Virus record (IMG/VR): IMGVR_UViG_3300029923_000008
Coordinates: 62,001 to 126,000 of that record
Reading direction: 5' to 3' (one strand)
Length of the DNA: 64,000 bases
From: a virus
The notes beneath the pieces are model-generated. The model made no database searches. It was not told the origin of the DNA and saw only the letters and a program-made list of their open reading frames with translations. Numbering within the stretch: the first letter of the stretch is position 1; each line of letters opens with the position of its first letter. The translations under genes were made by a program, and so were the position numbers. This document shows positions 6,132 to 58,647 of the stretch, piece by piece.

Positions 6132-6917
6132 TTATAAATTATATTTTTTTGAGTCTTTTTTTAACTCTTTTTTTTCCAAATATTCAACATAAAATTCCAG
6201 AACATTAAAATCAACAGGAATTCCAACTTTTGAATTATTGTCATATCTAATGATTTTAACATTTTTACAATCATTTTTACTTAATGTTGTTGAACTAGAA
6301 TCCGAAATGTAATATGGCACACCATCTTCATTATCATTATCATTATCATTACTATTTTGAAACCCAAATGCATTTAGTAAAGCAAGCTTGATTCTTCCCA
6401 TGTTAGTATAATATTTTGATTTCAATGGTTCTCCGTTTAAGAATATCTTATACTTAGAAACAACTAAATTTTCATCTTTAGCTTCACCAACCAAGCAAGT
6501 TCTAAAATCAGATAACTTTGCTTCAAATTTTTCACCAGCATATGGACCATCTAAAATTTCAATTATCAAATTGTATTTTTCATCGACAACTTTAATTTTT
6601 GTGTCTTTTTTAATAGTAAATGCTGGTTTTGGGCTACCACCTTTTGATAATGCATACTCATACAACCAATCTTTTTTCTGTTTACTCATATAGTCCAATT
6701 TAGATGTGTCAGCTACCCAAGAATCAGCGCCATTTGGTAAATTACAGCCATTTTCATCATTTTTAATACGATGATCACACACCCATTTATAATAGTAGTG
6801 TAAATCAAAATCCTTTGCTGCTCTCCAATCAATGTCTAATTTCATTGTTTGCTTAGTAAAAGGTACTTTTGATTGAACTGTAGAATTATGTTCGTCAAAT
6901 GTTTTTATTTTTTTCAT
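6132..6917 (-). CDS. Hypothetical protein, 261 aa, with N-terminal leader-like and C-terminal KYNL
   Basis: The first residues MKKIKTFDEHNS resemble the leaders of putative head-packaged proteins at 27-33 kb, though the expected Glu of the cleavage site is absent. The C-terminus KKYNL resembles KFNL/KFNI in that same group. The middle has a Trp-rich region (DIDWRAAKDFDLHYYYKW) and a beta-rich stretch with an Asn/Asp run (NDNDNDNED). Function is not recognised. It sits in an early-looking operon, so leader status is uncertain. Confidence 0.78.
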   Translation of the reverse strand: MKKIKTFDEHNSTVQSKVPFTKQTMKLDIDWRAAKDFDLHYYYKWVCDHRIKNDENGCNLPNGADSWVADTSKLDYMSKQKKDWLYEYALSKGGSPKPAFTIKKDTKIKVVDEKYNLIIEILDGPYAGEKFEAKLSDFRTCLVGEAKDENLVVSKYKIFLNGEPLKSKYYTNMGRIKLALLNAFGFQNSNDNDNDNEDGVPYYISDSSSTTLSKNDCKNVKIIRYDNNSKVGIPVDFNVLEFYVEYLEKKELKKDSKKYNL

Positions 6918-31305: not shown

Positions 31306-31590
31306 TTAAATATTAAATTTATTTGTTGTCTTCATAAATTCAGAATCATCTTTAACTTTATGTATTGCTGCTCTTAGCATTGAAATTTTAGTTTCTTTCA
31401 TATCATTATAATTTTCACAAGATGCTTTAATACTATCTGCTAATCCTTTTATTCTTTTATATTCTTCATCAGTTAAAAAAATATTAGAATTGTGAGTATA
31501 TCCTGTTCTTAATTCACCATTTTCAGAATTAATATAATATCCTCTTACTCTTGAACTTTCGTTTATTTCTTCAAATTTATTTACTTTCAT
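31306..31590 (-). CDS. Probable packaged small protein, leader plus KFNI end, 94 aa
   Basis: It has both hallmarks of the cluster: leader MKVNKFEEINE-SSR with an I-N-E cleavage pattern, and C-terminus TNKFNI. The body contains GYYINSENGELRTGYTHNSN and a charged helix. Nothing reveals a biochemical function. Confidence 0.77.
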   Translation of the reverse strand: MKVNKFEEINESSRVRGYYINSENGELRTGYTHNSNIFLTDEEYKRIKGLADSIKASCENYNDMKETKISMLRAAIHKVKDDSEFMKTTNKFNI

Positions 31591-31591
31591 A

Positions 31592-31930
31592 TCACAAGTT
31601 AAATTTTTTTGCTTTTTTATATACTTCAGGATTGTCTATAAATTTCATAATATCATCAAATTCACTTTGACTTATTTTATCAAAATTTTTATCTGCATAC
31701 GGATAGTGGTATTCAACCCAATACCAATATTCTCCAGTTTCATAATCTTTTTCATCAGATTTATTTAAATTAGTAATTGACATATAGCTATGCTTTGTAT
31801 CTCCAAGATGTTCTATTCTGAAATTATCATTAAAAATATAATATTCTTCTATTAGATTCATAATTTCTTGTCTAATAATTTCATACTTATCTTTAAATTT
31901 TAAATATTCTTTATATTTATTTACTTTCAT
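31592..31930 (-). CDS. Small protein with leader-like start and KFNL end, 112 aa
   Basis: It begins MKVNKYKEYLKFKDKY, close to the leader of the next gene (MKVNKFEEINE) but without a clear cleavage Glu, and ends KAKKFNL. The centre is YWYWVEYHYPYADKNF, aromatic-rich. It is one base from the gene downstream. No family is recognised. Confidence 0.76.
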   Translation of the reverse strand: MKVNKYKEYLKFKDKYEIIRQEIMNLIEEYYIFNDNFRIEHLGDTKHSYMSITNLNKSDEKDYETGEYWYWVEYHYPYADKNFDKISQSEFDDIMKFIDNPEVYKKAKKFNL

Positions 31931-43213: not shown

Positions 43214-44695
43214 TTATAATGCAGTTTCTTCTAATTTTTTTAATTCATCTTTTAATTTTTCAAGTTCTTCGTGCTTTTGATTCATTACTTTCTTCCATTT
43301 TTTTCTATCTGAATATACTTCAGCCATTACTTGAGTAACAACTCCGTCTTCATTCTTAAATACTGAACCATTTAGAGTAACAATATCATCAGAATCAATT
43401 TCTAATTGATGTCCATTAAAAATTGAGTAGTCTTTTCCTTTTACTTTTTGTCCTTTATATGAATCTGCTGATATATTAAATTCCCTCATTGTTGTAGGAT
43501 ATAGAGATGCAAAGTCAAAACAACATGTCCATGTTGCCATACCTCTTACTGGATCTTTAACCCATCCTCCTTTTATAGCTTCAGATTCTGTGTCTCCATA
43601 TTCACTATCTTCATTTCTTACAAGTACAATATTTTTTTGATCTCTTAATTTCTCTCTTAAAATTCCTTCTGTTAGAGCAAGAGTAGAAATAGCATCTTTA
43701 ATCTTAATTTTACCTAATACAGCCATACCATAAAGAATGTCTACATATTTCATTTTTTCATGAATCCTTTGTACAAGACAACTATCTACTGCATTATAAA
43801 ACACGAATTTTTTAAAATCTTCTCTGTGTAATCTTTTTAAATCACCATCATAGTTAATTTTCTTAATCTCTTTACCAAGTATTTTTTCAGATGCAAAATC
43901 AAGTGATAAACTTTCTTTAACTTTAACAGATTGATCCCATTTCTTAAATAATTCCATATAATCAACAATAACTCTATGAGCAGGTAATTCAGAATAATCT
44001 GGATGTATTGCATTTGGTGGGTTGAATGGTTTATTAAGTTTTCTTGTGAATGATGCAACCTCAGGTTCAAGTCCTAATTTTCTAGCTCTTGCAACTAAGA
44101 ATGTCCAGTCATAACCAATGAAATTCCAACCAGTTATTACAGCCATCTTTGGAACTAATTTATTAAAAAATGCATGAAGCATATCAAATTCAGTTTTATA
44201 ATGAATATACTTAAATTTATAATCAATATCAAATTTTTTGAAGTATGTAACCAAATCGGATTCTATACTTAAAATTTGTTTGGAATCTAATGGTTCTGTA
44301 CCAATTACTAACACTTTATTCTTATTTACAATTGAAATTGTTTGAATTGCACTTTCAGCTAAATGAGGCTCAGGTTTTTTGTCTAATATCTCATTTTCTA
44401 TATCTACAAAGAATATATCAGGTTCATTATATGAATAAATTTCATCCCTTTCTTTTTTATCAAAACTATCAATAAAATCATAAACTGAATAACGATTTGG
44501 ATATTTTGAATAAATTTCCTTTACTGAGGAGCCATCCCAGGTTACATATCTACCACTTTTTTCTGAATCATCATCAGTAGTTTTTATGAATTTTGTTGGT
44601 CTAGCCCAAGGATAATATTTAAGTTCAATATTACCTTTGGAGTTTATAAAACTTAATATTAAATTGTTATTTTTATATTCGTAATCTACAAGCAT
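43214..44695 (-). CDS. DNA polymerase B, N-terminal part only (exonuclease to motif A), 493 aa
   Basis: This is the N-terminal portion of a T4 gp43-like polymerase. The proofreading exonuclease motifs are present: FFVDIENEI (Exo I, about residues 99-107), TGWNFIGYDWTFLVARARKL (Exo II) and YNAVDSC (Exo III). It continues into palm motif A (CCFDFASLYPTTMREFNIS) and then stops, after VYSDRKKWKKVMNQKHEELE and a charged helix, before motifs B (K-x3-NSxYG) and C (DTD). The stop is clean, with the next gene 14 bases on. No C-terminal half or intein sequence is in the window, so it must be encoded elsewhere, as in the split gp43A/gp43B of some Aeromonas phages. Alone it could only degrade DNA. Confidence 0.9.
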   Translation of the reverse strand: MLVDYEYKNNNLILSFINSKGNIELKYYPWARPTKFIKTTDDDSEKSGRYVTWDGSSVKEIYSKYPNRYSVYDFIDSFDKKERDEIYSYNEPDIFFVDIENEILDKKPEPHLAESAIQTISIVNKNKVLVIGTEPLDSKQILSIESDLVTYFKKFDIDYKFKYIHYKTEFDMLHAFFNKLVPKMAVITGWNFIGYDWTFLVARARKLGLEPEVASFTRKLNKPFNPPNAIHPDYSELPAHRVIVDYMELFKKWDQSVKVKESLSLDFASEKILGKEIKKINYDGDLKRLHREDFKKFVFYNAVDSCLVQRIHEKMKYVDILYGMAVLGKIKIKDAISTLALTEGILREKLRDQKNIVLVRNEDSEYGDTESEAIKGGWVKDPVRGMATWTCCFDFASLYPTTMREFNISADSYKGQKVKGKDYSIFNGHQLEIDSDDIVTLNGSVFKNEDGVVTQVMAEVYSDRKKWKKVMNQKHEELEKLKDELKKLEETAL

Positions 44696-45340: not shown

Positions 45341-45376
45341 AAAATGAAAAATGAAATTAATTCATTTTTCATTTTT
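45341..45376. terminator. Bidirectional terminator between convergent genes
   Basis: The stem AAAATGAAAAATGAA and its complement is centred on ATTAAT. It overlaps the last codons of the minus-strand glycosyltransferase-like gene. Confidence 0.7.
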
Positions 45377-46219
45377 CATTTTTTCGATATATCTGTAATT
45401 ATTATAATTGTGATCAACTCCGTTAAGTCCTTTGTCACTATGAGCAGTATCATATAATACAACATCATCTAAATTTAATTTGTAAATATTATAATTATTT
45501 ATAAAATTTAACAAAAATAAATTTTTTTTATTGTGATAATTCTCATCAGATTCTGACCAATTTGAACCTCTATAATAGTGTATGAATTCATTACTTATAA
45601 ATTGACATCTATATTCTTGTTTATATGGATATTCCAATTTATTATTAGTAAATATATAATCGGATTCAATATCTATTGCTGCTGTGTGTATAACTAACTC
45701 TGTGCTATATTTTTTCATTAATATATTTGTTCCAGATCCAGTATCCGCAATTCCATTAAAAGTGAAATTAGATAAATCTATATCATTATGAAATATTGTA
45801 AATATTGCAGATAAATATTCATATGATGTATTATTAATATTTCTTTGTTGATATAATCCACAAATTTTTTTACCATTTAATATATCAATAAAACTAAATT
45901 TTTTAAAAGGAAAAACATCGCAATCTAAAATAACACTTATATTATTAGTATCATCTATTTTTATGTAATTTTGTAAAATATATTCTAATGCAAAAAAATG
46001 AGATTGTGATGTAAATTTTTCACTATTATTATCAGTTATTTTAATGCTATTTATATTAAATTTTTTACAAATATCAATAATACTATTTTTTGTGTTATCA
46101 TCAAATGCATTATTTACAATTATTAGTTCATATTCATCATTACAATTTTTTTTGAATTGATGATATTGTAACTCAACAAATTCTGGCTTAATATAATGAA
46201 TTGAATATATTTTTATCAT
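45362..46219 (-). CDS. GT-A-fold glycosyltransferase-like protein, 285 aa
   Basis: The start MIKIYSIHYIKPEFVELQYH, the strand YELIIVNNAFDD (30-41) and SVILDCDVFPFKKFSF (about 94-109), with D-x-D-type metal site (DCD), are typical of GT-A glycosyltransferases. GSGTNILMKKY and the C-terminal region are less conserved. I cannot assign a CAZy family. It is last in an operon of three glycosyltransferases, overlapping its neighbour by 4 bases. Confidence 0.73.
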   Translation of the reverse strand: MIKIYSIHYIKPEFVELQYHQFKKNCNDEYELIIVNNAFDDNTKNSIIDICKKFNINSIKITDNNSEKFTSQSHFFALEYILQNYIKIDDTNNISVILDCDVFPFKKFSFIDILNGKKICGLYQQRNINNTSYEYLSAIFTIFHNDIDLSNFTFNGIADTGSGTNILMKKYSTELVIHTAAIDIESDYIFTNNKLEYPYKQEYRCQFISNEFIHYYRGSNWSESDENYHNKKNLFLLNFINNYNIYKLNLDDVVLYDTAHSDKGLNGVDHNYNNYRYIEKMKNEK

Positions 46220-46971
46220 AAAATTAATTTATTACTCTGTATATCAATAGAGTTATTTTTATTTATTAATAATTCTTTTTTGAGTTCTTCGATATTCAAA
46301 TTTATATCTCTAGTTTCACCAATACCACCTTTATCACTAATTACAAATGAAAAATCTGGACATAATACTACTTTTGTAGGTGGATTAAAATGAAAATATC
46401 TATTGATATAACTTTCATCATTCACACCAGGCTCATAAGGTATTTTTTTATCTTCTAATTGATAATATCTCATAGTTTCACAAAAATTTATCATATTGTT
46501 AGAATTACCTCCAAAAAATGCACCATAAAAATACATTTGTGATAATTTAGTATCAAATGGTACATATGCTTTTGATGATGGATTTCTATCAAATGATTTT
46601 TCATTTTTCATCCAATCTTGATCTCCATAATGCTGACCACCAACTAAATCTCCAATAAACCAATCTTCAATAAAATCTTTATTTACATTAGTATCAGCAT
46701 CAAAATAAAATAGATAATCACTTTTTAATTTATCTTTAATTGATAATATAGATGTAAATTTTAAGTTTGTTCCATCTACCCAATTATTATTAGTCACATG
46801 AAAATATTCAACATCAATATTATCAGGTATATAATTTTTTGGATTATTATCCGAGAAAAAATAGAAGGTGATGTTTTTATCACCTTTGTAAAAATTCATA
46901 AATCTTTTAATAAATCTTATTCCTAACACAAAATAAGCATTTGTAGCTAATACAACTATTCCTATATTCAT
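46216..46971 (-). CDS. GT6-family (ABO/alpha-1,3-GalT type) glycosyltransferase, 251 aa
   Basis: The match to GT6 is good: YLFYFDADTNV with the D-x-D at 91-93, GQHYGD near 112-117, PSSKAYVPFDTKLSQ, FYGAFFGGN (148-156), and NDESYINRYFHF with PPTKVVLCPDFSF (184-210), corresponding to the HDESHLNRYF and PTKVLSPEY region of the vertebrate enzymes. Members add Gal or GalNAc in alpha-1,3 linkage to a galactose-terminated acceptor. Bacterial and cyanophage members of GT6 are known. Here it is flanked by other glycosyltransferases and upstream adhesin genes. The acceptor is unknown: a virion protein glycan or host surface glycan. Confidence 0.86.
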   Translation of the reverse strand: MNIGIVVLATNAYFVLGIRFIKRFMNFYKGDKNITFYFFSDNNPKNYIPDNIDVEYFHVTNNNWVDGTNLKFTSILSIKDKLKSDYLFYFDADTNVNKDFIEDWFIGDLVGGQHYGDQDWMKNEKSFDRNPSSKAYVPFDTKLSQMYFYGAFFGGNSNNMINFCETMRYYQLEDKKIPYEPGVNDESYINRYFHFNPPTKVVLCPDFSFVISDKGGIGETRDINLNIEELKKELLINKNNSIDIQSNKLIL

Positions 46972-46986
46972 TTAATTTTTTATTTT

Positions 46987-47898
46987 TTACCAGATTATAT
47001 CTTTAAAATTTTCTTCTGTTTCTTTTATTTCTTTCACATAATTATATGTACAATTATCATTATCAACTTTTATTTCTTTATTGAATGGAGAAACTTGATA
47101 TTCAATTTTGCTAAAATGTGTATCACTTTTGCCTACTATTCCAGCATTGTGAAAAATATAAGTTTCGTCCCATCTTTTTATATTATCAGTAGCCCAACTA
47201 AATTCTAAATCTTTATTAATCTCGACTTCATGATTATAATAAACGGCATTCCATAAAACTGCCCACATATCAGATGTCCATGATTGAATAGGATGTTCAG
47301 GATTATATATACTTTCTGTGTTTTTCATATGAGAATATAAATTTTCACTATCATCATACACCTTTTTCCAATAATCAGAATTTATTCCTTTCATTAAATA
47401 TTGTGCTCCTCCTGCATTATTATCAATTGCTACAATATCTTCTGGTTTTACTTTAGATATTTCACACATTTCATTAAACAATTGTTCACTCTTACTTTTT
47501 ATATACATGGTATCAATATAAGACCTAGTATCACTCAAATGCCATTTATTATCATTCACCATATCCGTGAAATCTAATTTTTTTGTGAAAATCATATCTG
47601 GATCACAATAAAAAAATGTTTCATTATTATATTCAGGATGTTCAATGAATAATTTTTCTAATATGTGAGGTCTTAATGATGATGGATATTTTGGATTTAC
47701 TCTTTCATCGTTATAAATGAAGAATTTAGATTTTATTTTTTCATTATTCATTAATGATTTTAAAATTGGACTAGGATTTGAAGTTGATACTACATAAATT
47801 GTATCATTATCATATCCATATTTCATAAAATTATTTATCTGTACAAGTACTTGCCACAAATAATAATTATGATCAAAAGTTGCTACTAATATTTTCAT
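46987..47898 (-). CDS. Glycosyltransferase-like protein (hydroxyproline/serine O-glycosyltransferase-like), 303 aa
   Basis: The sequence has TFFYCDPDMIFTKKLDF (about residues 93-109) with a D-P-D metal site, NNAGGAQYLMKG (160-171), and SWTSDMWAVLW (about 206-216) followed by IFHNAGI (about 250-256). This series is reminiscent of plant and algal peptidyl hydroxyproline-arabinosyl and serine-galactosyl transferases and phage relatives. The assignment is tentative. It heads the three-gene glycosyltransferase operon. Context suggests a protein acceptor, for example the neighbouring adhesins. Confidence 0.7.
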   Translation of the reverse strand: MKILVATFDHNYYLWQVLVQINNFMKYGYDNDTIYVVSTSNPSPILKSLMNNEKIKSKFFIYNDERVNPKYPSSLRPHILEKLFIEHPEYNNETFFYCDPDMIFTKKLDFTDMVNDNKWHLSDTRSYIDTMYIKSKSEQLFNEMCEISKVKPEDIVAIDNNAGGAQYLMKGINSDYWKKVYDDSENLYSHMKNTESIYNPEHPIQSWTSDMWAVLWNAVYYNHEVEINKDLEFSWATDNIKRWDETYIFHNAGIVGKSDTHFSKIEYQVSPFNKEIKVDNDNCTYNYVKEIKETEENFKDIIW

Positions 47899-48008: not shown

Positions 48009-50048
48009 TTATAGTTTTGATATATATAAATTCGCTTCTTGATCAACACCTGCAGATGTTACAACTTTAATAATTGATGAGCCAATATATCCTAACGTTT
48101 TAGGAATAATACCTCTTATTTCTGTGTCAGATATATATTCTTGTGAATCTAAATATATATATTTAAGATTACCAGATGGCGCTATACTAATGTAAGCGTC
48201 AGTATAATATTTAGAAAAATTTTGTCCTGATATGGTAATTAATGTTCCTTTTGATGAAGTAGATCCTGTGACATCCATTGGAGTAAAACTTAAAATAGAT
48301 GGAGCTGATGTCGCTTGTATATAAGATTCAAACGGTGAATATGTTATAGAACCATTAGATGTTGTTGCATAAACATTCATTATTTCATTCATACCTGAAG
48401 TTGTTAGTCCAGATGGTACAATTACTTTTAAATGACTATTATCTATTGTAGATGTTACACCATAAGTACCTGGATAAGATGTTCCAAAACTAATAAGTCC
48501 TCCTGATAATAGACTACCATATATATCAATAGAATCACCATATTTTCCAAATATAGGACTTATTTTTGATATTATAGGTTGATTTGTTGTATCAACAGTG
48601 AAACCATTTAATGTATAATTACCGTTTATACTTTCTACTCTAATATCAACATTACCAGTTGGTATTGTGTCATTAGTTGATGTAGAATTTAATATCTGGA
48701 CTGTTAATGCTGTTGGACTATTATATGAAAACCTTGATAATACATTTCCTACATAAACACTCATTGATGGACTGTTTATAAATCCAGTGCCATATACACC
48801 TATTGAATGCTGTCCTCTTTTCATATGTGTAGAACTAAAACTACTTAATGATAAATTTCCAATTGTTAGTAAATTATATGAATATGGTAATGATGATCCG
48901 TATTTGTTAATTACTATAACGCTATTTATACCTGGCGTAACATCAGTTCCTATATAAATCGAACAAGAATTGAAATTTATAGGTGTTGATTTACATATAA
49001 CTCCACTAAATGTAATAGTCAAAGGAACATTTAAATTAGTTCCTGTTAGAATTACTGTATTACCTGGATAAACTGATGGATTTATATTTGTTATAGTTGG
49101 AATTAGAGTACTAGTAGATCCATAAACTGTAAATCCAGATTTTGATATTTCATCAACTCTAATTATTGTATCTCCAATAGGAGTATCATTTGAAATATCT
49201 GCTCTTATATGTCCAGAATCTATAAAAGTTATTTTTGATGATTGAGTAGGACCAATATGAACTAATGTAGTTGAGACATCAAAATTTGCTCCAAATATAT
49301 CTACATATCCACCTTGACTTGCAGATGATGGATAAAAACTTTCAAATAAAGGAATTGTTCCATTGTTAATTATTATGTTTGCAAATAAACTTTGTCCAGG
49401 ATTTATCAATCCAAGATCTGTTTGAAGATATAATTGAGTAAGACCAAGTGTTAATAATGGTACTATAGCAGTTAATTTTGTTGAACTAATAACAGTAGTA
49501 ATTGCATGAGTTACTGGTACAAAAAATAACTCTGTTTTTCCAGGTATGAAATATAATCCTTCTATTGTTATAGTAGAATTTATATCTGCGCTAGTAGGAC
49601 TTATTGTTATTATAGGTTTATTATTTTGTTTAAATACTTTATATTTTGCTGATGGACCTGTCGCTAATGGAGATTTTAATACCACTTCAACTTCATTGTC
49701 ATAATTAGTAAGATCAGGTATTACAACATTTAATTGATTAGGAGAAACTAATGTTGTTACTCCTGTTATTCCGCTAAAAGATGCAACTGTATTTTTAACA
49801 AAATTTATTCCATATATTGTTATCAAATCACCATTATATGCACTTGTAGGATCAAAATCTGAAATAATTGGGGCATTTGAATATCCTTCCAATATATATG
49901 ATGCTTCACTACCATCATCATCTTTTATCCAAAATCCTTTAGTACTTCCACTACTTACTGTTGTATCTTCATATCCAAAATAAATATAACCTTTCTCTGG
50001 AGTTTCAACATCATCTTTAAGTATTTTTTTAATTTTAATATAACTCAT
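48009..50048 (-). CDS. IPT/TIG-domain repeat adhesin, 679 aa
   Basis: After a short N-terminal region (MSYIKIKKILKDDVETPEKG; GFWIKDDDGSEASYI) come about seven Ig-like IPT/TIG domains of 75-90 residues. Each starts with a pattern such as ISDFDPTSAYNGDLITIYGI, ITNINPSVYPGNTVILTGTN or ISKISPIFGKYGDSIDIYGS. No signal peptide, so it is a virion component rather than an exported one. It is very rich in Ser and Thr. Likely a tail-fibre or head-decoration protein that contacts the host. It has a late-type motif and its own terminator. It lies beside the large glycosyltransferase, of which it is a candidate substrate. Confidence 0.86.
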   Translation of the reverse strand: MSYIKIKKILKDDVETPEKGYIYFGYEDTTVSSGSTKGFWIKDDDGSEASYILEGYSNAPIISDFDPTSAYNGDLITIYGINFVKNTVASFSGITGVTTLVSPNQLNVVIPDLTNYDNEVEVVLKSPLATGPSAKYKVFKQNNKPIITISPTSADINSTITIEGLYFIPGKTELFFVPVTHAITTVISSTKLTAIVPLLTLGLTQLYLQTDLGLINPGQSLFANIIINNGTIPLFESFYPSSASQGGYVDIFGANFDVSTTLVHIGPTQSSKITFIDSGHIRADISNDTPIGDTIIRVDEISKSGFTVYGSTSTLIPTITNINPSVYPGNTVILTGTNLNVPLTITFSGVICKSTPINFNSCSIYIGTDVTPGINSVIVINKYGSSLPYSYNLLTIGNLSLSSFSSTHMKRGQHSIGVYGTGFINSPSMSVYVGNVLSRFSYNSPTALTVQILNSTSTNDTIPTGNVDIRVESINGNYTLNGFTVDTTNQPIISKISPIFGKYGDSIDIYGSLLSGGLISFGTSYPGTYGVTSTIDNSHLKVIVPSGLTTSGMNEIMNVYATTSNGSITYSPFESYIQATSAPSILSFTPMDVTGSTSSKGTLITISGQNFSKYYTDAYISIAPSGNLKYIYLDSQEYISDTEIRGIIPKTLGYIGSSIIKVVTSAGVDQEANLYISKL

Positions 50049-50083: not shown

Positions 50084-52549
50084 TTAAATTCCATATTGTA
50101 TTTCTAATATTTTATTTTTTTCATAAAATACTATATTCAACTTATTTGTATCTTCAGCTAAATTTATTTTTGGTATGCACCAAATCACACTATTTTTATT
50201 TAATGATGTTTCAGATAAAGTATAATATATTTTGTTTGATTTTAAATCTTTAATATCAATATTTAATGCTTGCATATCTTCTCCATTATAATATAACATC
50301 AATTTATTTTCATTTTTATCATACGTTATATTTATATTGTTTTTATCTAAGTTATATTTAACATCATATTTTTTAAAATCAAATTTCTTTGGATTTTCAA
50401 TTAATTTTGACTCTATTATTCTATCAGTTATCATTTCTGGTGTTATGCTAGTAGAGCATTCAAATTGCTTATCAGTATTTTTATTTATCGGACACCAATT
50501 CCAATCTCCTGGATCAAATTTGTGTGTATTAAAACATCCATTACACACTTTAAAATTATGTATGTTTATGTTATTAGTTTTAAATTCGCAAAAAGGTTTA
50601 GAAAACCCTGACATCATTACTACTTGCTTACCAACAGCCCATGCCAACCAACTTAATCCTGATCCAATACCAATATAAAATTCAGACCATTTTAATTCAT
50701 TGATTCTGTGTTCAATAGGAAAATTTCCAGTTCTATCTATTATATTTTTAAGATTGGTTGGTTGTTTACTTATTACCATAACTTTATATCCTTGTGTATT
50801 AAACCAATCAACTAAAATTTGCCAGCCTTTATTGCTATCTTTGCAAGGATAATGCCAGTGCTTAGAGTTAGCTGTTGAGAATTGACCAATGCAAACATAT
50901 TTCTCTTTGATTGGTCTAATTCCTTCAGGAATTTCAATTTTTGGTATAATTTCTTCGTATTCTAATCCAAGTATATCACTTGCTGTTTTTTGCAAAGGAA
51001 TAGTTTTATAATCAATAGGATTTCTATTGTTGTCATATGGAGAATACCAACCTATTTTATATTTTGCATACAAATTTTCAGTGTTTTCTTGTCCTGGTTC
51101 AACAAAAGTTATTTCTGAATATTGATTTATGAACCAACTATTCCAAAATGTTGAGCACTGAACTTTACAATTATGCTTTTTTCTAAATTCTTCAATATAT
51201 GGAAACCATGCCAATGTATCTCCTATTGATTTGCTTTCTAATGTTATCAATACATTTTTATTAGTTAAATCAAAATCATGAGTAATTACTAATTTATTAT
51301 TTTTAAATATGTTAATTTTGTATTCTTTATAACATTCATAATTAGTACGACACCAATTATTGTTGTTTAACATTTTTTTGTATATAATTTCATTTGTATT
51401 TTTATCTAATATTTCAACATAAAATTCAGATGGAGAATCACCAACAATTTCTACCTTTGCTCCTTTAATGAAATCAATATTATAATCATATTGTGGTTCT
51501 ACTATTCTTTGAGTTGTTTTATTTATATAAAGAGTATTATTATACTCTTTTAATAATATATCTTGAAATGTTATATTATCATCTAATCTTTTTATATTGA
51601 AATTATCTAATATTCTTTTAGAATCTTTATCAACATTCATTGTCAAATATTTAATGTTTTTATATAAATCATATGTATCTAAATATGTATTAAGATTGTT
51701 TAAATAAACAGGCAAATCATACGATGTTGCTTCTTTGATAGCTAATGGATTAAGTTCTAGTAAAGATGAATGAATTAGTAAATCAGATGCTTGATAAAAT
51801 AAATCAACATCACTTCTTTCTCCATGAATTATACAATTGGCTGGTTTTTTATTTAATAATGGACTCCAATAATCAGAAAAATTCTCTGCTTGATTGCCTA
51901 CAAAATGAAATTGTATTTTATAATCTATCAATTTTTCTGCTATATCAAAAACATATCCTTGATTTTTTCCTGATGTAAATAATCCAACATTCAAAACATG
52001 AAAATACTCAGGATCAAATTTCAATACATCAATTGCTAATCCGTTATTACATGCTAATTTTTCTACTGGATATTCAACAACAGAAGATGGTATGTCAAAT
52101 TTACTATATTGTAGTTGTGAATATTTAGATACAAATAAAAACTTATCTGGAAAGTATATTTTTTTATTAATATCAAAAGTTGAAGTGTGAGTTGTTTCTA
52201 TTATTTTATATGGTCTATCATCTCTATATAACCAACTCACATGATCATTTCTCATTCCAAAAATAAATAATTCTGGTATTTCTTCCATATGAACAATATC
52301 AGGATTAATAGTATTAATTATTTCTTGAAAAAAATCACGTTTTGTTTCATCTTCCATTCCTCCAAGTGAAATGAATTTATCTCCTAATAATTCAATCAGT
52401 CTATTCCTTTGTACTACAAAACTCCAAGAGATTTGTCTATATTCAATTACATAGACATCATTTGTATTTATTAAAGATTCTACTCTTTTTAATGACACAG
52501 AAGGAAGTCCGCCAGTACTGGCATGTGGCAAAATTATCAATATTTTCAT
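50084..52549 (-). CDS. Two-module glycosyltransferase: GT4-like + BAHT (TibC/Aah-type) heptosyltransferase, 821 aa
   Basis: Residues 1-340 are a GT-B module of GT4 type (VLNVGLFTSGKNQGYVFDIA; FHFVGNQAENF; SSLLELNPLAIKEATSYDLP). A beta region follows. From about 430 on it matches bacterial autotransporter heptosyltransferases: SIGDTLAWFPYIEEFRKKHN, KYVCIGQFSTANSKHWHYPC, then FYIGIGSGLSWLAWAVGKQV (about 625-645) and CNGC-x12-WNWCP-x12-FEC, four Cys near residues 666, 669, 684 and 697. In TibC four such cysteines hold iron. TibC and Aah attach heptose to many Ser residues of beta-helical adhesins. The usual partner autotransporter is absent; an IPT/TIG adhesin lies immediately downstream. The fusion to a GT4 module suggests a two-sugar reaction. 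Confidence 0.86.
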   Translation of the reverse strand: MKILIILPHASTGGLPSVSLKRVESLINTNDVYVIEYRQISWSFVVQRNRLIELLGDKFISLGGMEDETKRDFFQEIINTINPDIVHMEEIPELFIFGMRNDHVSWLYRDDRPYKIIETTHTSTFDINKKIYFPDKFLFVSKYSQLQYSKFDIPSSVVEYPVEKLACNNGLAIDVLKFDPEYFHVLNVGLFTSGKNQGYVFDIAEKLIDYKIQFHFVGNQAENFSDYWSPLLNKKPANCIIHGERSDVDLFYQASDLLIHSSLLELNPLAIKEATSYDLPVYLNNLNTYLDTYDLYKNIKYLTMNVDKDSKRILDNFNIKRLDDNITFQDILLKEYNNTLYINKTTQRIVEPQYDYNIDFIKGAKVEIVGDSPSEFYVEILDKNTNEIIYKKMLNNNNWCRTNYECYKEYKINIFKNNKLVITHDFDLTNKNVLITLESKSIGDTLAWFPYIEEFRKKHNCKVQCSTFWNSWFINQYSEITFVEPGQENTENLYAKYKIGWYSPYDNNRNPIDYKTIPLQKTASDILGLEYEEIIPKIEIPEGIRPIKEKYVCIGQFSTANSKHWHYPCKDSNKGWQILVDWFNTQGYKVMVISKQPTNLKNIIDRTGNFPIEHRINELKWSEFYIGIGSGLSWLAWAVGKQVVMMSGFSKPFCEFKTNNINIHNFKVCNGCFNTHKFDPGDWNWCPINKNTDKQFECSTSITPEMITDRIIESKLIENPKKFDFKKYDVKYNLDKNNINITYDKNENKLMLYYNGEDMQALNIDIKDLKSNKIYYTLSETSLNKNSVIWCIPKINLAEDTNKLNIVFYEKNKILEIQYGI

Positions 52550-52610: not shown

Positions 52611-52644
52611 AAAAAAGCATCATTGAAAATCAATGATGCTTTTT
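52611..52644 (-). terminator. Rho-independent terminator
   Basis: The stem AAAAGCATCATTG and its complement with a U-run lies 16 bases after the NAD synthetase stop. Confidence 0.87.
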
Positions 52645-52659
52645 ATTAAAAATAATAAA

Positions 52660-54432
52660 TTAATCTAAAGATACTGTATTAATTGGTGTATATTTATTAA
52701 TTAATGTTTCACGATTACTAAATCCTCTGCTCCTTGGACTCATGATAACAATTGGAGAACTTTGAGCAGCTTTATATACTGATATTTTCATTTTACTAAC
52801 TGCAAAATTAACTTGCTCATCCCATTGTTTAATATCATATTTATAAACTTCCTCCATTTTAGGAAAATAGTCAATATTCAATGAATGATTTTTATAATTC
52901 AAAATTAAATCATCTCTTGTCATTCTATCACGAATTAAAGATGCACATATTCCACTTTGTACCCAATAATCAATTGGATCTTCATTTGCATCAGGTAATT
53001 CTGCGGCAGGTTTAAATTTTCCATTATATAAATCAAAAGGCACAATTTCATCTTTATATAATTCAGTGTTAATATAATCTGATAATTCATACAATTCAAC
53101 TTTTGTTAAATCTCCAATTATAGCATGAACACCAATTGAACCAATATCATGGAAGGATGCCCAACCCAAAACGATCTCAGTATGATTACCTGTTGAAACA
53201 ATGCCACTTTTAAATCTGTGAGTATCTTCTAATCCTAGTACAGTTCTTAACACTGCATGTATTGATGCTTTACCTGTATCACTTAATTCAGGAGCATCAC
53301 TCATATGAATTTTATCAACTTCTAATATTTCATTGACAGTAGATTGAATTGGTTGCCAATAGGTAGTAGTTCCTAATTTTTCATCTAATTGAGTCACATA
53401 ATCTCTTGATTTAGTATTCAATGATGATGGATTTGAAATAAATATGGTATGTTCTTTACCCATAGCTTTATAAACTAATGCTGCTACAATAGATGAATCA
53501 AGTCCTCCTGATACATGAACTTGAGCATTTTTAATTCCTGACAATTTGAAGAATTCTTTTTGCTCAAATAGAATAGCATCAGTTATTTCTTTATATTTAC
53601 TATCATCACTTCCTATAATTGGATCACAATCTGATATTTTGAAATTTGAATTTGCATCTTCAAATTTAGGTAGTTCTTTAATTAATCTTCCATAACTATT
53701 ATAAACAAGAGATCCACCATCATAAATTATAATATTTTTAACGATGTCACCACAACCAACTGAATTTACAGAAACAACAGGAACCATATTATTTTTAGCT
53801 ATTTTAGAAAAAAGATTTTTTCTAATTTTTTGCTTTCCATAATAAAAATATGATTGATTTGGAATAATCAAAATTTCTGCTCCCATGTTAACCATTTCTT
53901 GAGGAATATCTCTGTGATGATTCATAAACCATGCATCTTCACATATTGGAGTTCCAATTATAGTTTTACCTACATTTGGTAAATAAACTTCAAAAACTTT
54001 AGTTTCAGTTCCTTCTGTGAAATATTTTCTATCTTCGTGATGATCTGTATCAGCTAATAATTGTTTATCATATGTACGAATACCATTATTATCAATAACA
54101 GCTACTGAATTTTTTAATACTGGAAATCCATTTCTGTTATTACCGTGAGATGAAACAAATCCTATCACGATAATTCCTGACATATTCAATTCTTTTCTAT
54201 ATCTTTCTATATCTTTCAATTTTGTTATTTGATCACGAATGAAATCTTCTCGATCCCAAAGAGAACCACAACAATATCCACTAATTGAAGTTTCTGGAAA
54301 CACTGATATGTCTACATAAGAGTCATAGCTATGATCTAATTTTAAACATTGTAGTATTTTTCTAGTATTACCAATTAAATCTCCTGTTACAGTATTGATT
54401 TGATGTACTGAAATATTTGCATTTTCAATCAT
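52660..54432 (-). CDS. nadE: Glutamine-dependent NAD+ synthetase, 590 aa
   Basis: Residues 1-280 are a nitrilase-type glutaminase (FPETSISGYCCG with Glu near 46; a Lys in the middle; GTPICEDAWFM with the nucleophile Cys near 162). Residues 290-590 are the NadE ATP-pyrophosphatase domain with VHVSGGLDSSIVAALV (P-loop SGGLDSS, about 307-322), STGNHTEIVLGWASFHDIGS and PAAELPDANEDP. It amidates nicotinic-acid adenine dinucleotide to NAD+ using glutamine and ATP. It is complete, with its own early-type promoter and terminator. In phage, it may keep NAD+ up during infection or against NAD-depleting defence; that is inference. Confidence 0.95.
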   Translation of the reverse strand: MIENANISVHQINTVTGDLIGNTRKILQCLKLDHSYDSYVDISVFPETSISGYCCGSLWDREDFIRDQITKLKDIERYRKELNMSGIIVIGFVSSHGNNRNGFPVLKNSVAVIDNNGIRTYDKQLLADTDHHEDRKYFTEGTETKVFEVYLPNVGKTIIGTPICEDAWFMNHHRDIPQEMVNMGAEILIIPNQSYFYYGKQKIRKNLFSKIAKNNMVPVVSVNSVGCGDIVKNIIIYDGGSLVYNSYGRLIKELPKFEDANSNFKISDCDPIIGSDDSKYKEITDAILFEQKEFFKLSGIKNAQVHVSGGLDSSIVAALVYKAMGKEHTIFISNPSSLNTKSRDYVTQLDEKLGTTTYWQPIQSTVNEILEVDKIHMSDAPELSDTGKASIHAVLRTVLGLEDTHRFKSGIVSTGNHTEIVLGWASFHDIGSIGVHAIIGDLTKVELYELSDYINTELYKDEIVPFDLYNGKFKPAAELPDANEDPIDYWVQSGICASLIRDRMTRDDLILNYKNHSLNIDYFPKMEEVYKYDIKQWDEQVNFAVSKMKISVYKAAQSSPIVIMSPRSRGFSNRETLINKYTPINTVSLD

Positions 54433-54515: not shown

Positions 54516-56639
54516 TTAGGATACGGTCCAACCTTTATTTGTTGCAATAGTTTTATCACAAGTAGAAAATCCTAAACAACCTGTAATTTTTATTGCTTTA
54601 CCAGATAATGTTGGTAAGTCTCCAAATAATGTATTTAAGGCTATCGCATCTAAATTACAATAAGAAACATCAACTTGAGGAGAAGAACCAGTGAATGTAC
54701 TACCAGTATTAGTTAGCCTTATGCTTGTAACTTGATTTGGAATTCCTGAAGTCCCAGCAATCGTAATCGAAGAAATTTTAGAATCTAAAATCATTTCACC
54801 ATTAACATATTCAGTAGAAAGAAATGCCCCATTGAAATTACATTGAGAAGTTAAGCTACCTATATATTCAAAGCCAGGGTTATTCGGTAAATTAGGACAG
54901 CCAGAAAACATATTACTAGCGTCAATTATATTTCCGAATGCTAATGGCAAAACAATTGATTGTAATCTTAGCATGTTAGACGCAAAACCCCCAATATTAC
55001 TCACGACACCCCATGAAGACGGTAGTACTAATGAAGAAATAGAAGAATGTGAAAACATAACTGAAATACTAGTAACTAGATCCCAAGATGTTGGTAATTC
55101 TATTTTTGTTAAAGAACTACAATACCAAAACATAGTACTAAGATTTGTAACTTTTCCCCAAGACGATGGCAATATTATTGATGATAAACTATTACACACG
55201 TAAAACATTTGACTCGCATCCGTAACGTTACCCCATGTTGGTGGAAATGTTACAGAAACTAAAGAAGAACACCCATAAGTGATACCATTTGCGTTTGTAA
55301 CATTTCCCCAATCTGGGAAAGCAATTGAAGATAAAGATGTACAACTTTGAAACATATTTTGAACTGTTGTTAGGCTTCCAAAAGATGGTGGAAAAATTAT
55401 TGACACTAAAGAGGTACATCCATAAAACATTAAAGTAGCGATAGTTACGTTTGTAAATGATGTTGGAAATTTTATTGACACTAAAGATGTACATCCATAA
55501 AACATATATGCTATAGTATTAAGGTTTCCCCAAGATGTTGGAAAGCTTACATTCTGTAAAGAAGCACAGTTATAAAATAAATAACTAGCATTTGTCACAC
55601 TTCCCCATTCAGGTAGGTATACTGACACTAAAGAATTACACGCAAAGAACATATAAGTAATAGTATTTACACTTCCCCAAGATGACGGAAATCTTATGCT
55701 TTTTAATTTTGGGCATAAGGCAAACATATTACTAGTTGTTATTACTTTACCCCAAGATAATGGTAATATAATTGAAGATATATAAGGGCAAACGTAAAAC
55801 ATATAACTTGTATTCGTAACATTACCCCAATAAGAAAAATTTACGTCAATTAAAATATCACAGCGTGAAAACATATATGTGCAGGTTGTAACTAAATTAA
55901 AACTAGATGGTAATGTAATTGATTGTAATTTTGCGCAATTTTGAAACATATAACTGGTGTTTTTATTTGCACCCCATGATACTGGCATAACTATTGATTT
56001 CAACTTAGTACAATTATTAAACATGTAACTTGAATCTGTAATTAAATTAAAATCTAATGGTAATACTATTGATATCACTCCACTATTATTAAGCATAGAA
56101 CTTGAATTTATTGATAGACCTGTAGAATTTAACGGAAAGATTACACTTTCCAAAAAAGGAAGAGAGAATAAAGAATAGTTACTATAAAACATACTATTAT
56201 AAGTTGTTAAATAAATAGCATTCATAATATTCGCATATAAAATTTTTTGTATTTGAGTAGATTTAGTAAGTGTATGAGCTTTTATGGCAAACGTACTAAG
56301 ATTCCCAATTACACTACGAATACTAATCACAAATGTTGTATACCCGAGAGAACAAGGTTGCCCAGTACCAATTACATACTTATGCTGATAATTTGTTCCG
56401 CTAATATTATTAGTTGTTACGATTCCATCACCCCAATCAATAGTATATACTGACCCAGTTGATGTTATAACGTTAAAACAATATGCGATACAATCATCAG
56501 CTACAAGCAATTTAATCTCATTTATACTAGTATCTGAAATATCTATCCAATCTGGTTGTGGGGTCCATGGTATTATCGGTGTTATTACTGGTGATGATGA
56601 TATTGATGTTTGACTTGGTAATCTTATTATTCCTGACAT
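54516..56639 (-). CDS. BspA-type leucine-rich-repeat adhesin, 707 aa
   Basis: An N-terminal region of about 130 residues contains a PKD-like strand (VYTIDWGDGIVTTNNISG). It is followed by about 18 repeats of about 23 residues of the form YMFYGCTSLVSIKFPTSF, with SWGxVTxxSYMF connectors, the BspA/DUF285 leucine-rich repeat. The C-terminus has LDLSxCNL-like repeats (VDVSYCNLDAIALNTLFG). Cys in each repeat is notable for a phage fibre. There is no signal peptide. The codons are visibly richer in G and C than in surrounding genes. It is one base from the upstream fibre gene, so in the same operon. A receptor-binding role is likely. Confidence 0.86.
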   Translation of the reverse strand: MSGIIRLPSQTSISSSPVITPIIPWTPQPDWIDISDTSINEIKLLVADDCIAYCFNVITSTGSVYTIDWGDGIVTTNNISGTNYQHKYVIGTGQPCSLGYTTFVISIRSVIGNLSTFAIKAHTLTKSTQIQKILYANIMNAIYLTTYNSMFYSNYSLFSLPFLESVIFPLNSTGLSINSSSMLNNSGVISIVLPLDFNLITDSSYMFNNCTKLKSIVMPVSWGANKNTSYMFQNCAKLQSITLPSSFNLVTTCTYMFSRCDILIDVNFSYWGNVTNTSYMFYVCPYISSIILPLSWGKVITTSNMFALCPKLKSIRFPSSWGSVNTITYMFFACNSLVSVYLPEWGSVTNASYLFYNCASLQNVSFPTSWGNLNTIAYMFYGCTSLVSIKFPTSFTNVTIATLMFYGCTSLVSIIFPPSFGSLTTVQNMFQSCTSLSSIAFPDWGNVTNANGITYGCSSLVSVTFPPTWGNVTDASQMFYVCNSLSSIILPSSWGKVTNLSTMFWYCSSLTKIELPTSWDLVTSISVMFSHSSISSLVLPSSWGVVSNIGGFASNMLRLQSIVLPLAFGNIIDASNMFSGCPNLPNNPGFEYIGSLTSQCNFNGAFLSTEYVNGEMILDSKISSITIAGTSGIPNQVTSIRLTNTGSTFTGSSPQVDVSYCNLDAIALNTLFGDLPTLSGKAIKITGCLGFSTCDKTIATNKGWTVS

Positions 56640-56640
56640 A

Positions 56641-58647
56641 TTATATTCCTCCTATTATTTTGTATGTTAATGTTAAATCAGTTTTTGGTACAGAAGTTGA
56701 TTCTATTATAAAACTTCCTGATGCTGTTGTTATAGATGGTTGTATTCCAGAACTTGAAACATCAGATGAGTTCAAATTTGAAAATACTGCATCTATCCAT
56801 GATGTTATTGATACATTTGTATCTGATATTGTATAATAATAAAAACCGTTCGCATTTACAGAACTAGACCAATTTAAAATTAATATAGATATTGTATTTA
56901 TTATTGTTGCATTTATATAATAATTACTATCTACCGTACCGTTAGCTTTTAAGAATTGAGATGATGTTCCTCCTGATTTAATAAATAAACTGGCTGAAAT
57001 ATTATTATTACCTAAATCAACATTTGAAGTTGAACCAGTATAAGGAATATAATTAATAATATTTTGTGTTATTCCTGTAATTAAGTTATTCAATTGTGTA
57101 TCTCCACTTATTCTGTCAATAGTCTCATCGCTTATTAAGTTTGTTAATGATGTTTCACCAGAAATTCTATTAAATGTTTCTCCTGTAATTAAATTGTTTA
57201 AATATGTATATCCGCTTATTCTATTGAATGTTTCATCACTTATTAAATTATTTAATGATGTATATCCGCTTATTCTATTAGATGTTTCATCACTTATTAT
57301 GCTTGTTAATGAAGTATCACCAGACAGTCTATTGAATGTTTCATCACTTATTAAATTAGTTAATATAGTATCTCCGCTTATTCTACTAATAGTCTCATCA
57401 CTAATTAAATTTATAGTCTGTGTTGAAACAGGTAAATCTATTGGATTTATAGATTCAAATCTTGTTTTGCCAGAGTTCCAAATAGCCAAATAATTATCTG
57501 TTGGAATTTCTTCTCTTGTAGATAGAGGTTGTTCATATCCAATATCTCCTACTCTAGCTATACCATGATTATCAAAAACTAATCTACCATTACTCAATCC
57601 ATCATATTTTACAGATTCAAATCCAGTATATTCACCTTCTGATAATCCTGTTGTTGCTCCACTTCTTAATATTATATAATCTTTCGTTGTAAATATTTGT
57701 TCAGAATGAGTTTCATAAGTTGTTCCTGACTGTATAATATTTCCATCAATATGAAATGATCCTCCGTTATCAGTATATACAAAAGGATTTAATCCATTAG
57801 GTTGATATAATTGATAATGATTATGATTAGTATTAGAATATGATGTTGAATCAATAGAACCATCTGCTTTTAAAAATTGATTTGATGTACCTCCTGTTAC
57901 TGATACAATAGCAGAAATTATGCTTCCTTTTGATATTATATTTTCAGTTGAATTAATTCCTCCATTTACTTCTAATGTTAATCCATTATATGTTAATCCA
58001 CTATCAGCATATGCGCCGTTTGTAGTACCATCAGATTTTAATATTCTATTATTTGAGTAATTAGTTACTGTATCAAAGCCTGTGCCTGATGTACCATCTG
58101 TGCCTGATGTTCCTGAACTACCAGAACTACCTGATGAGCCAGAGCTTCCTGATGTACCTGATGTACCATCTGTGCCTGATGTTCCTGAGCTACCTGATGA
58201 ACCTGAGCTACCTGATGTTCCATCTGTACCTGACGATCCTGAGCTACCTGATGAACCTGATGTTCCATCTGTACCTGACGATCCTGAGCTACCTGATGAA
58301 CCAGAGCTTCCTGATGTTCCTGAGCTTCCTGATGTTCCATCTGTACCTGAAGTTCCTGATGAGCCAGAGCTTCCTGATGAACCTGATGTTCCTGATGAGC
58401 CAGAGCTTCCTGATGTTCCTGAGCTACCTGATGAACCTGATGTTCCTGAGCTACCTGATGTTCCTGATGTTCCAGAACTACCTGATGTTCCTGATGTTCC
58501 ATCTGTTCCTGAGATACCTGTTGTACCATCTGTTCCTGATGTAGATGTTCTTCCAGATTCAACAATTGAATCAACTGTATATTTTAAGTCATTTAGTTTT
58601 TTTCTTATGTTTCCACCATTTTCATATTCCAATATCCATTCACTCAT
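56641..58647 (-). CDS. Tail-fibre-type protein with Gly-Ser/Thr triplet repeats, 668 aa
   Basis: Residues 1-35 (MSEWILEYENGGNIRKKLND) are an attachment-type start. Residues about 36-195 are triplets G-(S/T)-(S/D), as in GSSGTSGTDGTSG, a proline-free collagen-like stalk. Then YSNNRILKSDGTTNGAYADS and ILRSGATTGLSEGEYTGF, typical of phage fibres. Next are six 18-residue repeats such as SDETFNRISGYTSLNNLI (about residues 412-525), then a beta C-terminal domain. A trimeric fibre is likely, with the triplets forming an extended stalk. The triplet region is dense in Ser/Thr and a candidate target for the glycosyltransferases. No signal peptide. It carries a late-type motif upstream. Confidence 0.86.
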   Translation of the reverse strand: MSEWILEYENGGNIRKKLNDLKYTVDSIVESGRTSTSGTDGTTGISGTDGTSGTSGSSGTSGTSGSSGTSGSSGSSGTSGSSGSSGTSGSSGSSGSSGTSGTDGTSGSSGTSGSSGSSGSSGSSGTDGTSGSSGSSGSSGTDGTSGSSGSSGSSGTSGTDGTSGTSGSSGSSGSSGSSGTSGTDGTSGTGFDTVTNYSNNRILKSDGTTNGAYADSGLTYNGLTLEVNGGINSTENIISKGSIISAIVSVTGGTSNQFLKADGSIDSTSYSNTNHNHYQLYQPNGLNPFVYTDNGGSFHIDGNIIQSGTTYETHSEQIFTTKDYIILRSGATTGLSEGEYTGFESVKYDGLSNGRLVFDNHGIARVGDIGYEQPLSTREEIPTDNYLAIWNSGKTRFESINPIDLPVSTQTINLISDETISRISGDTILTNLISDETFNRLSGDTSLTSIISDETSNRISGYTSLNNLISDETFNRISGYTYLNNLITGETFNRISGETSLTNLISDETIDRISGDTQLNNLITGITQNIINYIPYTGSTSNVDLGNNNISASLFIKSGGTSSQFLKANGTVDSNYYINATIINTISILILNWSSSVNANGFYYYTISDTNVSITSWIDAVFSNLNSSDVSSSGIQPSITTASGSFIIESTSVPKTDLTLTYKIIGGI
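57080..57405 (-). repeat. Six tandem 54-base repeats in the fibre gene
   Basis: Each unit encodes SDETxxRxSGxTxLxxLI. Copies differ at synonymous and a few coding positions; the first and fifth start TGET or SDET. Such arrays can expand or contract by recombination. Confidence 0.8.
58080..58550 (-). repeat. Tandem short DNA repeats encoding Gly-Ser/Thr triplets
   Basis: About 470 bases are made of 9-base and 27-base near-repeats (for example CCTGATGTT and CCTGAGCTACCTGATGAA on the plus strand). This keeps all three frames on the opposite strand open, which explains the false reading frames of up to 190 codons there. Confidence 0.85.

Follow-up and report, generated by a model that had tools for sequence, protein, structure and literature searches.

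Background

Why would a phage encode a protein O-heptosyltransferase, and which protein would such an enzyme modify? The question is raised by a 64,000-nucleotide stretch of viral DNA (hereafter the window), which comprises bases 62001-126000 of the 143-kb IMG/VR record IMGVR_UViG_3300029923_000008. An earlier note, made from the sequence alone, regarded one gene of the window as an enzyme of the TibC/Aah (BAHT) type fused to a second glycosyltransferase module, and it suggested that the phage glycosylates its own fibres. We analyzed the family assignment of this enzyme, its conserved residues, its gene neighbours in phages and bacteria, and the genes that could supply its donor sugar.

The explanation that we prefer, and that we regard as rather probable when taken as a whole, is that the enzyme heptosylates serines in the repeats of a tail fibre and that its GT4 half extends the glycan. 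Within this explanation we infer the sugar, the acceptor, the order in which the two halves act and the benefit to the phage.

Sequences and searches

Bacterial and archaeal homologues were collected by a scan of one genome per species, which yielded 339 encoding stretches; the best 80 of the 339 were used. Several contigs binned into bacterial metagenome-assembled genomes (MAGs) were excluded from the bacterial counts because they look like phage (L049, L059 and L065) or probably are phage (L048, L052 and L054). In these contigs the enzyme gene is flanked by genes for sheath-like or other virion proteins. The final counts of repeat proteins were made with a filter of five triplets; a filter of eight triplets undercounts them.

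The literature was searched with limited coverage, most subscription papers lying outside it. As far as this coverage reaches, the pairing of the enzyme with (Gly-Thr/Ser-Ser)n proteins that we describe below is new. We also found there no work joining a heptosyltransferase with collagen-like repeats, none naming the cultured Microcystis phage Mel-JY01, and none on such an enzyme in a phage, which agrees with the view of the earlier note that it is undescribed.

Domain architecture of the enzyme

The open reading frame of 821 codons is intact (Table 1), and a second, separate IMG/VR record (L010) encodes an identical protein. The dN/dS ratio of the gene is about 0.14-0.21 in comparisons with relatives at 84, 78, 67 and 66% identity. 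Thus the gene is under purifying selection.

Residues 355-711 match the TIGR04414 profile (hepto_Aah_TibC) with 307 bits (cut-off 200; E 1.5e-91), and seven further phage homologues also exceed this cut-off. TibC (4rap/4rb4) is the best match in a sequence search of the PDB (residues 356-708, E 6e-57). The AlphaFold2 model of the enzyme has a mean pLDDT of 70.6; the values are mostly about 75-94 in the TibC-like half and weak at residues 666-684, where the iron finger lies. The best Foldseek match of the model is TibC 4rap (E 2.7e-30, 389 aligned columns, TM-score over TibC 0.82). The profile and structure searches, which were open to an unrelated family, both returned the TibC family. The SGLSWLAWA motif and the four cysteines that had suggested this relationship are real; the motif lies at about residues 630-638. 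The generic heptosyltransferase profile PF01075 (Glyco_transf_9) has no match in the phage record, whereas TIGR04414 does, so the generic profile overlooks the enzyme gene. PHROGs contains no family matching the enzyme.

The supposed fusion to a GT4 module also held. Pfam Glycos_transf_1 matches residues 176-291 with 34.1 bits (cut-off 26.4), and the E-x7-E signature of the module, E265 and E273, is unchanged in all eight relatives compared. The boundaries needed correction: the heptosyltransferase half had been placed at residues 430-820, and it actually spans residues 355-711, followed by a separate beta-rich domain at residues 720-821. The barrel region matches Pfam TibC_1st weakly and under the cut-off (E 0.018). 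Judged by sequence and structural model, the enzyme is a GT4 glycosyltransferase fused to a putative protein O-heptosyltransferase of the TibC/Aah type.

Table 1 Features of the enzyme and of its neighbourhood (coordinates in the window)
Feature	Coordinates	Strand	Remarks
Fused glycosyltransferase, 821 aa: GT4 + TibC-like protein O-heptosyltransferase (predicted) + C-terminal beta domain	50084..52549	-	
N-terminal GT4 module, residues 1-340	51530..52549	-	Glycos_transf_1 and E-x7-E
TibC-type N-terminal beta-barrel, residues ~355-425	51275..51487	-	Model beta-rich; Foldseek alignment covers the full TibC chain
GT-B heptosyltransferase catalytic region, residues 430-711	50417..51262	-	TibC alignment
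Iron-finger cysteines C669, C672, C686, C698	50456..50545	-	Align with TibC C339, C342, C358, C370
Beta-rich C-terminal domain, residues 720-821	50087..50392	-	Restricted to window-type phages
Terminator-like hairpin, 15 pairs	52612..52644	-	Between NAD synthetase and enzyme genes
IPT/TIG repeat protein, 679 aa, 6 TIG domains; alternative acceptor	48009..50048	-	35 bases downstream of enzyme
phrog_4417 protein	46987..47898	-	Conserved third gene of the unit
Family 6 glycosyltransferase; may extend the glycan	46216..46971	-	Beside enzyme unit
Possible further glycosyltransferase	45362..46219	-	Weak DUF6492 match only
Collagen-like tail-fibre-type protein, 668 aa; proposed acceptor	56641..58647	-	Pfam Collagen; PHROG tail fibre
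51 Gly-X-Y triplets (24 GSS, 17 GTS); proposed glycosylation region	58078..58536	-	

The two halves are not always found in one protein. Relatives of the GT4 module are encoded by separate genes adjoining the TibC-like gene in L030/L032, and a gene of the GT4 subfamily lies upstream of the TibC-like gene in L022, L028, L041, L048 and L049. Other relatives have the TibC-like domain joined to a module of the GT4, GT2-like, methyltransferase or another type. Because they are fused in some phages and adjacent genes in others, the GT4 and TibC-like halves probably act in sequence.

Catalytic residues and the missing thumb

In TibC, D110 is the catalytic residue, T226, K230, R286 and W305 serve donor binding, and P300 determines stereoselectivity; cysteines 339, 342, 358 and 370 form the iron finger, and F265 and V266 belong to a beta-hairpin thumb that is required both for the dodecamer and for activity (PMC4358343). 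The window enzyme has D444, T559, K563, R615 and W634 at the positions of D110, T226, K230, R286 and W305, and G629 at that of P300. The Asp, Thr, Lys and Trp and all four cysteines are kept in every aligned phage homologue. Several of them have Thr or Leu in place of R286, so the donor may vary within the phage enzymes.

The thumb is absent. F265 and V266 have no counterpart in the window enzyme, whose corresponding region has 28 residues versus 36-37 in TibC and all classical homologues. Among the aligned phage homologues, only L038 has residues at the two thumb positions. The need of TibC for its thumb (PMC4358343) counts against a heptosylated fibre, as do the loss of R286 in several phage enzymes and the weakness of the model at the iron finger.

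A sister branch of the TibC superfamily

A tree of 77 sequences separates the classical enzymes from a second group with an SH-aLRT support of 100. The classical group consists of TibC and 28 sampled relatives with thumb regions of 36-37 residues. The second group holds every phage sequence of the tree and the remaining bacterial ones; its thumb regions usually have 27-33 residues, and those of L048, L049, L059 and L038 are longer and differ in composition. By its sequence, then, the window enzyme is assigned to a well-separated sister branch that is present in many large phages and in some bacteria.

The window enzyme is therefore no BAHT in the narrow sense, although it probably works in the same manner. 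It shares with TibC/Aah the TIGR04414 match, the GT-B fold, the N-terminal barrel, the catalytic Asp, the donor Thr, Lys, Arg and Trp and the Cys4 iron finger. It differs in its deleted thumb, in its fusion to a GT4 module and a C-terminal domain, in its place in a separate branch and in having no autotransporter repeats as partner. Bacterial members of the sister branch (e.g., L055, L058, L062 and L066 from Gammaproteobacteria, L053, and L060 and L067 from Methylococcales) resemble it in the short thumb, the iron finger, most catalytic residues (R286 in some members only) and the link to (Gly-Thr/Ser-Ser)n proteins. Unlike it, they are mostly stand-alone proteins of 370-430 aa, and their partners are secreted proteins or lipoproteins rather than virion fibres.

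Partners of the enzyme in bacteria

Five of seven genomes that encode classical enzymes contain the autotransporter target repeat TIGR04415. It was absent from all 18 bacterial genomes of the sister branch and from all seven phage records searched, which bears out the earlier observation that the phage enzyme has no autotransporter partner. Instead, by a strict count, 14 of 19 independent bacterial genomes of the sister branch carry a (Gly-Thr/Ser-Ser)n gene at most about 1.3 kb from the enzyme gene; the count includes four genomes added in a second round (L129, L138, L140 and L152). No such neighbour was found within this distance at about 66 classical loci, seven of them from the same order. 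Fisher's exact test gives p = 3e-12 for this contrast, a value that ignores relatedness and serves as a guide only.

Stronger evidence comes from a pattern search of 14 whole genomes, which were picked solely for having the enzyme. Of the 135 matches to the pattern (Gly-Ser/Thr-Ser/Thr)5, 121 are located within 2.1 kb of the enzyme gene, and in nine of the 14 genomes all matches are. The neighbouring repeat proteins start with signal peptides or lipoboxes. L050 and L051 fall below the strict filter, yet they have secreted neighbours rich in GTA, GTN and GTS. L061, L063 and L136 have no neighbour passing the filter, so the pairing is not universal. Gly-Thr/Ser-Ser repeats are probably the natural acceptors of the sister branch.

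A conserved gene of about 276-281 codons, whose product starts with ...LIQAxxRLLRPLVRFLLSRGFTY..., accompanies the pair of enzyme and repeat protein in the gammaproteobacterial L055, L058, L062 and L066.

The bacterial pairing also bears on the suggestion that the phage enzyme alters the host surface during infection, i.e., LPS or another glycan, for example as a receptor change that excludes other phages. We consider this suggestion very unlikely. Surface-modifying glycosyltransferases are known in phages, and the catalytic fold is near that of LPS heptosyltransferases (there are matches to WaaC); however, the barrel, the iron finger and the TIGR04414 match, far above the LPS heptosyltransferase models, are all kept. 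Additionally, the bacterial branch is paired with exported repeat proteins, and the phage gene sits among fibre genes.

Repeats in phage fibres

In the window, such repeats occur in the collagen-like fibre protein, 6.6 kb upstream of the catalytic region of the enzyme and on the same strand. The Y position of the triplets is Ser in 82% of cases, which resembles the NS*G context of one glycosylation site of TibA (PMC4358343). Among 16 enzyme-bearing phage records, 13 contain (Gly-Thr/Ser-Ser)n repeats. In G016 and G018 a distance of about 10.6 kb separates the enzyme from the repeat, which is upstream. L034 and L036 have a collagen-like fibre gene as the next gene to the enzyme, and L042 has one just upstream. 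In Mel-JY01 the repeats fall within the same 23-kb stretch as the enzyme. An extreme case is G022, a 241-kb enzyme-bearing phage record, where a single frame (L165 7-9636) encodes an unbroken run of 1070 Gly-X-Y triplets with much Ser and Thr.

Large phages commonly have fibres of the (Gly-Thr/Ser-Ser)n type. Therefore co-occurrence in phages is weak evidence when taken alone, and the bacterial linkage weighs more. Such a repeat is missing from one window-type record, the 94-kb fragment G017, which speaks against the fibre as acceptor. Since the linked partners in the sister branch are (Gly-Thr/Ser-Ser)n proteins and not autotransporters, we regard the repeat shaft of the collagen-like fibre as the likeliest acceptor.

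The IPT/TIG gene as a second candidate

The gene directly after the enzyme gene is indeed an IPT/TIG gene, as the earlier note stated, on the same strand and separated by the short gap given in Table 1. The hairpin upstream of the enzyme gene, of which L009 has a near-identical copy in the same place, indicates that a transcription unit probably begins with the enzyme gene, and the enzyme and TIG genes are then probably on one transcript. Window-type phages keep the order enzyme-TIG-phrog_4417 even where enzyme identity has fallen to 66%, whereas the genes upstream vary. Thus the window-type enzyme has the TIG gene, not the repeat fibre, as its constant neighbour, and the co-directional, conserved position of this gene makes its product a serious second candidate and a possible acceptor. 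On this reading the acceptor would be the TIG protein, a virion adhesin serving as the dedicated partner of the enzyme, as TibA is for TibC. This we judge unlikely: in the other phage groups and bacterial loci examined the enzyme gene is not followed by a TIG gene, whereas (Gly-Thr/Ser-Ser)n proteins accompany it there. In the window-type phages the TIG gene diverges faster than the enzyme gene. The idea of a phage glycosylating its own fibres survives in an altered form, with the collagen-like fibre as the likeliest acceptor and the TIG protein as only a possible one.

Several other genes of this region deserve a description. A glutamine-dependent NAD synthetase with amidase and NAD synthase domains (52660-54432) is encoded among the fibre genes; the gene is kept in relatives, in one of them on the opposite strand, and it may supply NAD against NAD-depleting defences. 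A BspA-type protein with six copies of a leucine-rich repeat (54516-56639) is encoded beside the collagen-like fibre, where relatives have other genes.

The DNA polymerase of the window (43214-44695) shares 58% identity with its counterpart in the 735-kb phage LR756501 and 42-43% with the polymerases of 636- and 642-kb phages. The 143-kb record probably represents only part of a much larger genome; the relative G015 has 330 kb.

Many small proteins share an N-terminal MKYLKxFE-like tag and a C-terminal KFNL/KFNI tag and are otherwise dissimilar. Tagged ORFs were found in L174, L175 and L176 (G015, G016 and G018), in L047 10033-19382 and in the window (6132-6917, 31306-31590 and 31592-31930). 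Both tags are present in 56 ORFs, the N-terminal one only in 10, the C-terminal one only in 24, and neither in 290; L175 and L176 may be near-copies. The shared tags look like a targeting or processing signal.

The donor sugar

Neither gmhA nor hldE has a match in the window's own 143-kb record, which looks like a fragment; this counts against heptose on the fibre. The larger relatives G015, G016 and G018 have gmhA-like genes just under the cut-off (207 and 202 bits; cut-off 209). The hldE domain II is above its cut-off in G019, and G026 has the hldE kinase and adenylyltransferase in tandem. The 735-kb phage LR756501 has an hldE-kinase-like gene, and LR756504 has a gmhA-like one. Sequences similar to gmhA occur in just 13 of 50,697 phage records, and LR756504 is both one of these 13 and one of the only four records that have the TibC-like enzyme. 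The hldE domain II is also present in about two dozen cyanophage records, where no TibC-like enzyme was detected, so the co-occurrence of hldE is supporting evidence only. ADP-heptose genes in related phages support heptose as the sugar.

The repeats of a virion protein could also receive a sugar other than heptose from another nucleotide sugar, which we find somewhat doubtful. The Gly at the position of P300, the loss of R286 (an adenine contact) in several relatives and the lack of an ADP-heptose gene in the window's own record would fit such a donor. The window enzyme itself, however, retains the equivalents of R286, W305, T226 and K230, and its nearest larger relatives have ADP-heptose genes, rare as gmhA is among phages.

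Proposed mechanism

In the explanation that we prefer, the fibre would be modified in the cytoplasm of the infected cell, ahead of virion assembly. The first step would fall to the TibC-like half, since Ser-heptosyltransferases of this type are known; it would transfer a heptose, most likely D-glycero-D-manno-heptose, from ADP-heptose onto Ser of the Gly-Thr/Ser-Ser triplets. The fused GT4 half would act second and put on the next sugar, and the neighbouring glycosyltransferases may lengthen the glycan. The shaft of the fibre would thereby become mucin-like, with heavy glycosylation.

Relation to known systems

A close counterpart in a cultured phage is WWT39291.1 of Mel-JY01, annotated as an FkbM methyltransferase. 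Like the window enzyme it combines GT4 with a TIGR04414 domain (317 bits) in one protein, and (Gly-Thr/Ser-Ser)n coding sequence flanks its gene; it differs in its length of 1226 aa and in its N-terminal architecture.

Dense O-glycans on Gly-X-Y repeats are found in BclA, a glycosylated collagen-like protein of the Bacillus spore surface. The proposed phage fibre would be alike in its O-glycans on Gly-X-Y repeats, whereas the enzymes, the sugars and the location (spore, not phage) differ.

Mycobacteriophages glycosylate their capsids and tail tubes, with glycans at the C-termini of the subunits (Freeman et al. 2023, cited in PMC12619734). According to this account, phage-encoded glycosyltransferases act on virion proteins there, as is proposed here; the portion of PMC12619734 that deals with the system mentions no TibC-like enzyme or repeat acceptor.

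Conclusions

We put at about an even chance a broader view, in which the second, short-thumb branch of the TibC superfamily is an O-glycosylation system of its own, consisting of the enzyme and an exported or virion repeat protein. Huge phages would have adopted this system, fused further glycosyltransferases and methyltransferases to the enzyme and gained ADP-heptose genes, for the sake of mucin-like fibres.

If so, the name "autotransporter heptosyltransferase" of TIGR04414 spans enzymes that do not act on autotransporters, and in the bacterial pair of enzyme and repeat protein one would have a compact O-glycosylation system that is new, accepts a simple repetitive substrate and is of use in glycoengineering. 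Since Mel-JY01 is cultured, a direct test is possible. The large phages examined often have (Gly-Thr/Ser-Ser)n repeats in their fibres, with a hitherto unexplained richness in serine. If the repeats scaffold dense O-glycans, many large phages would have sugar-coated fibres, with effects on adsorption, on resistance to proteases and on how hosts and immune systems recognize the phage.
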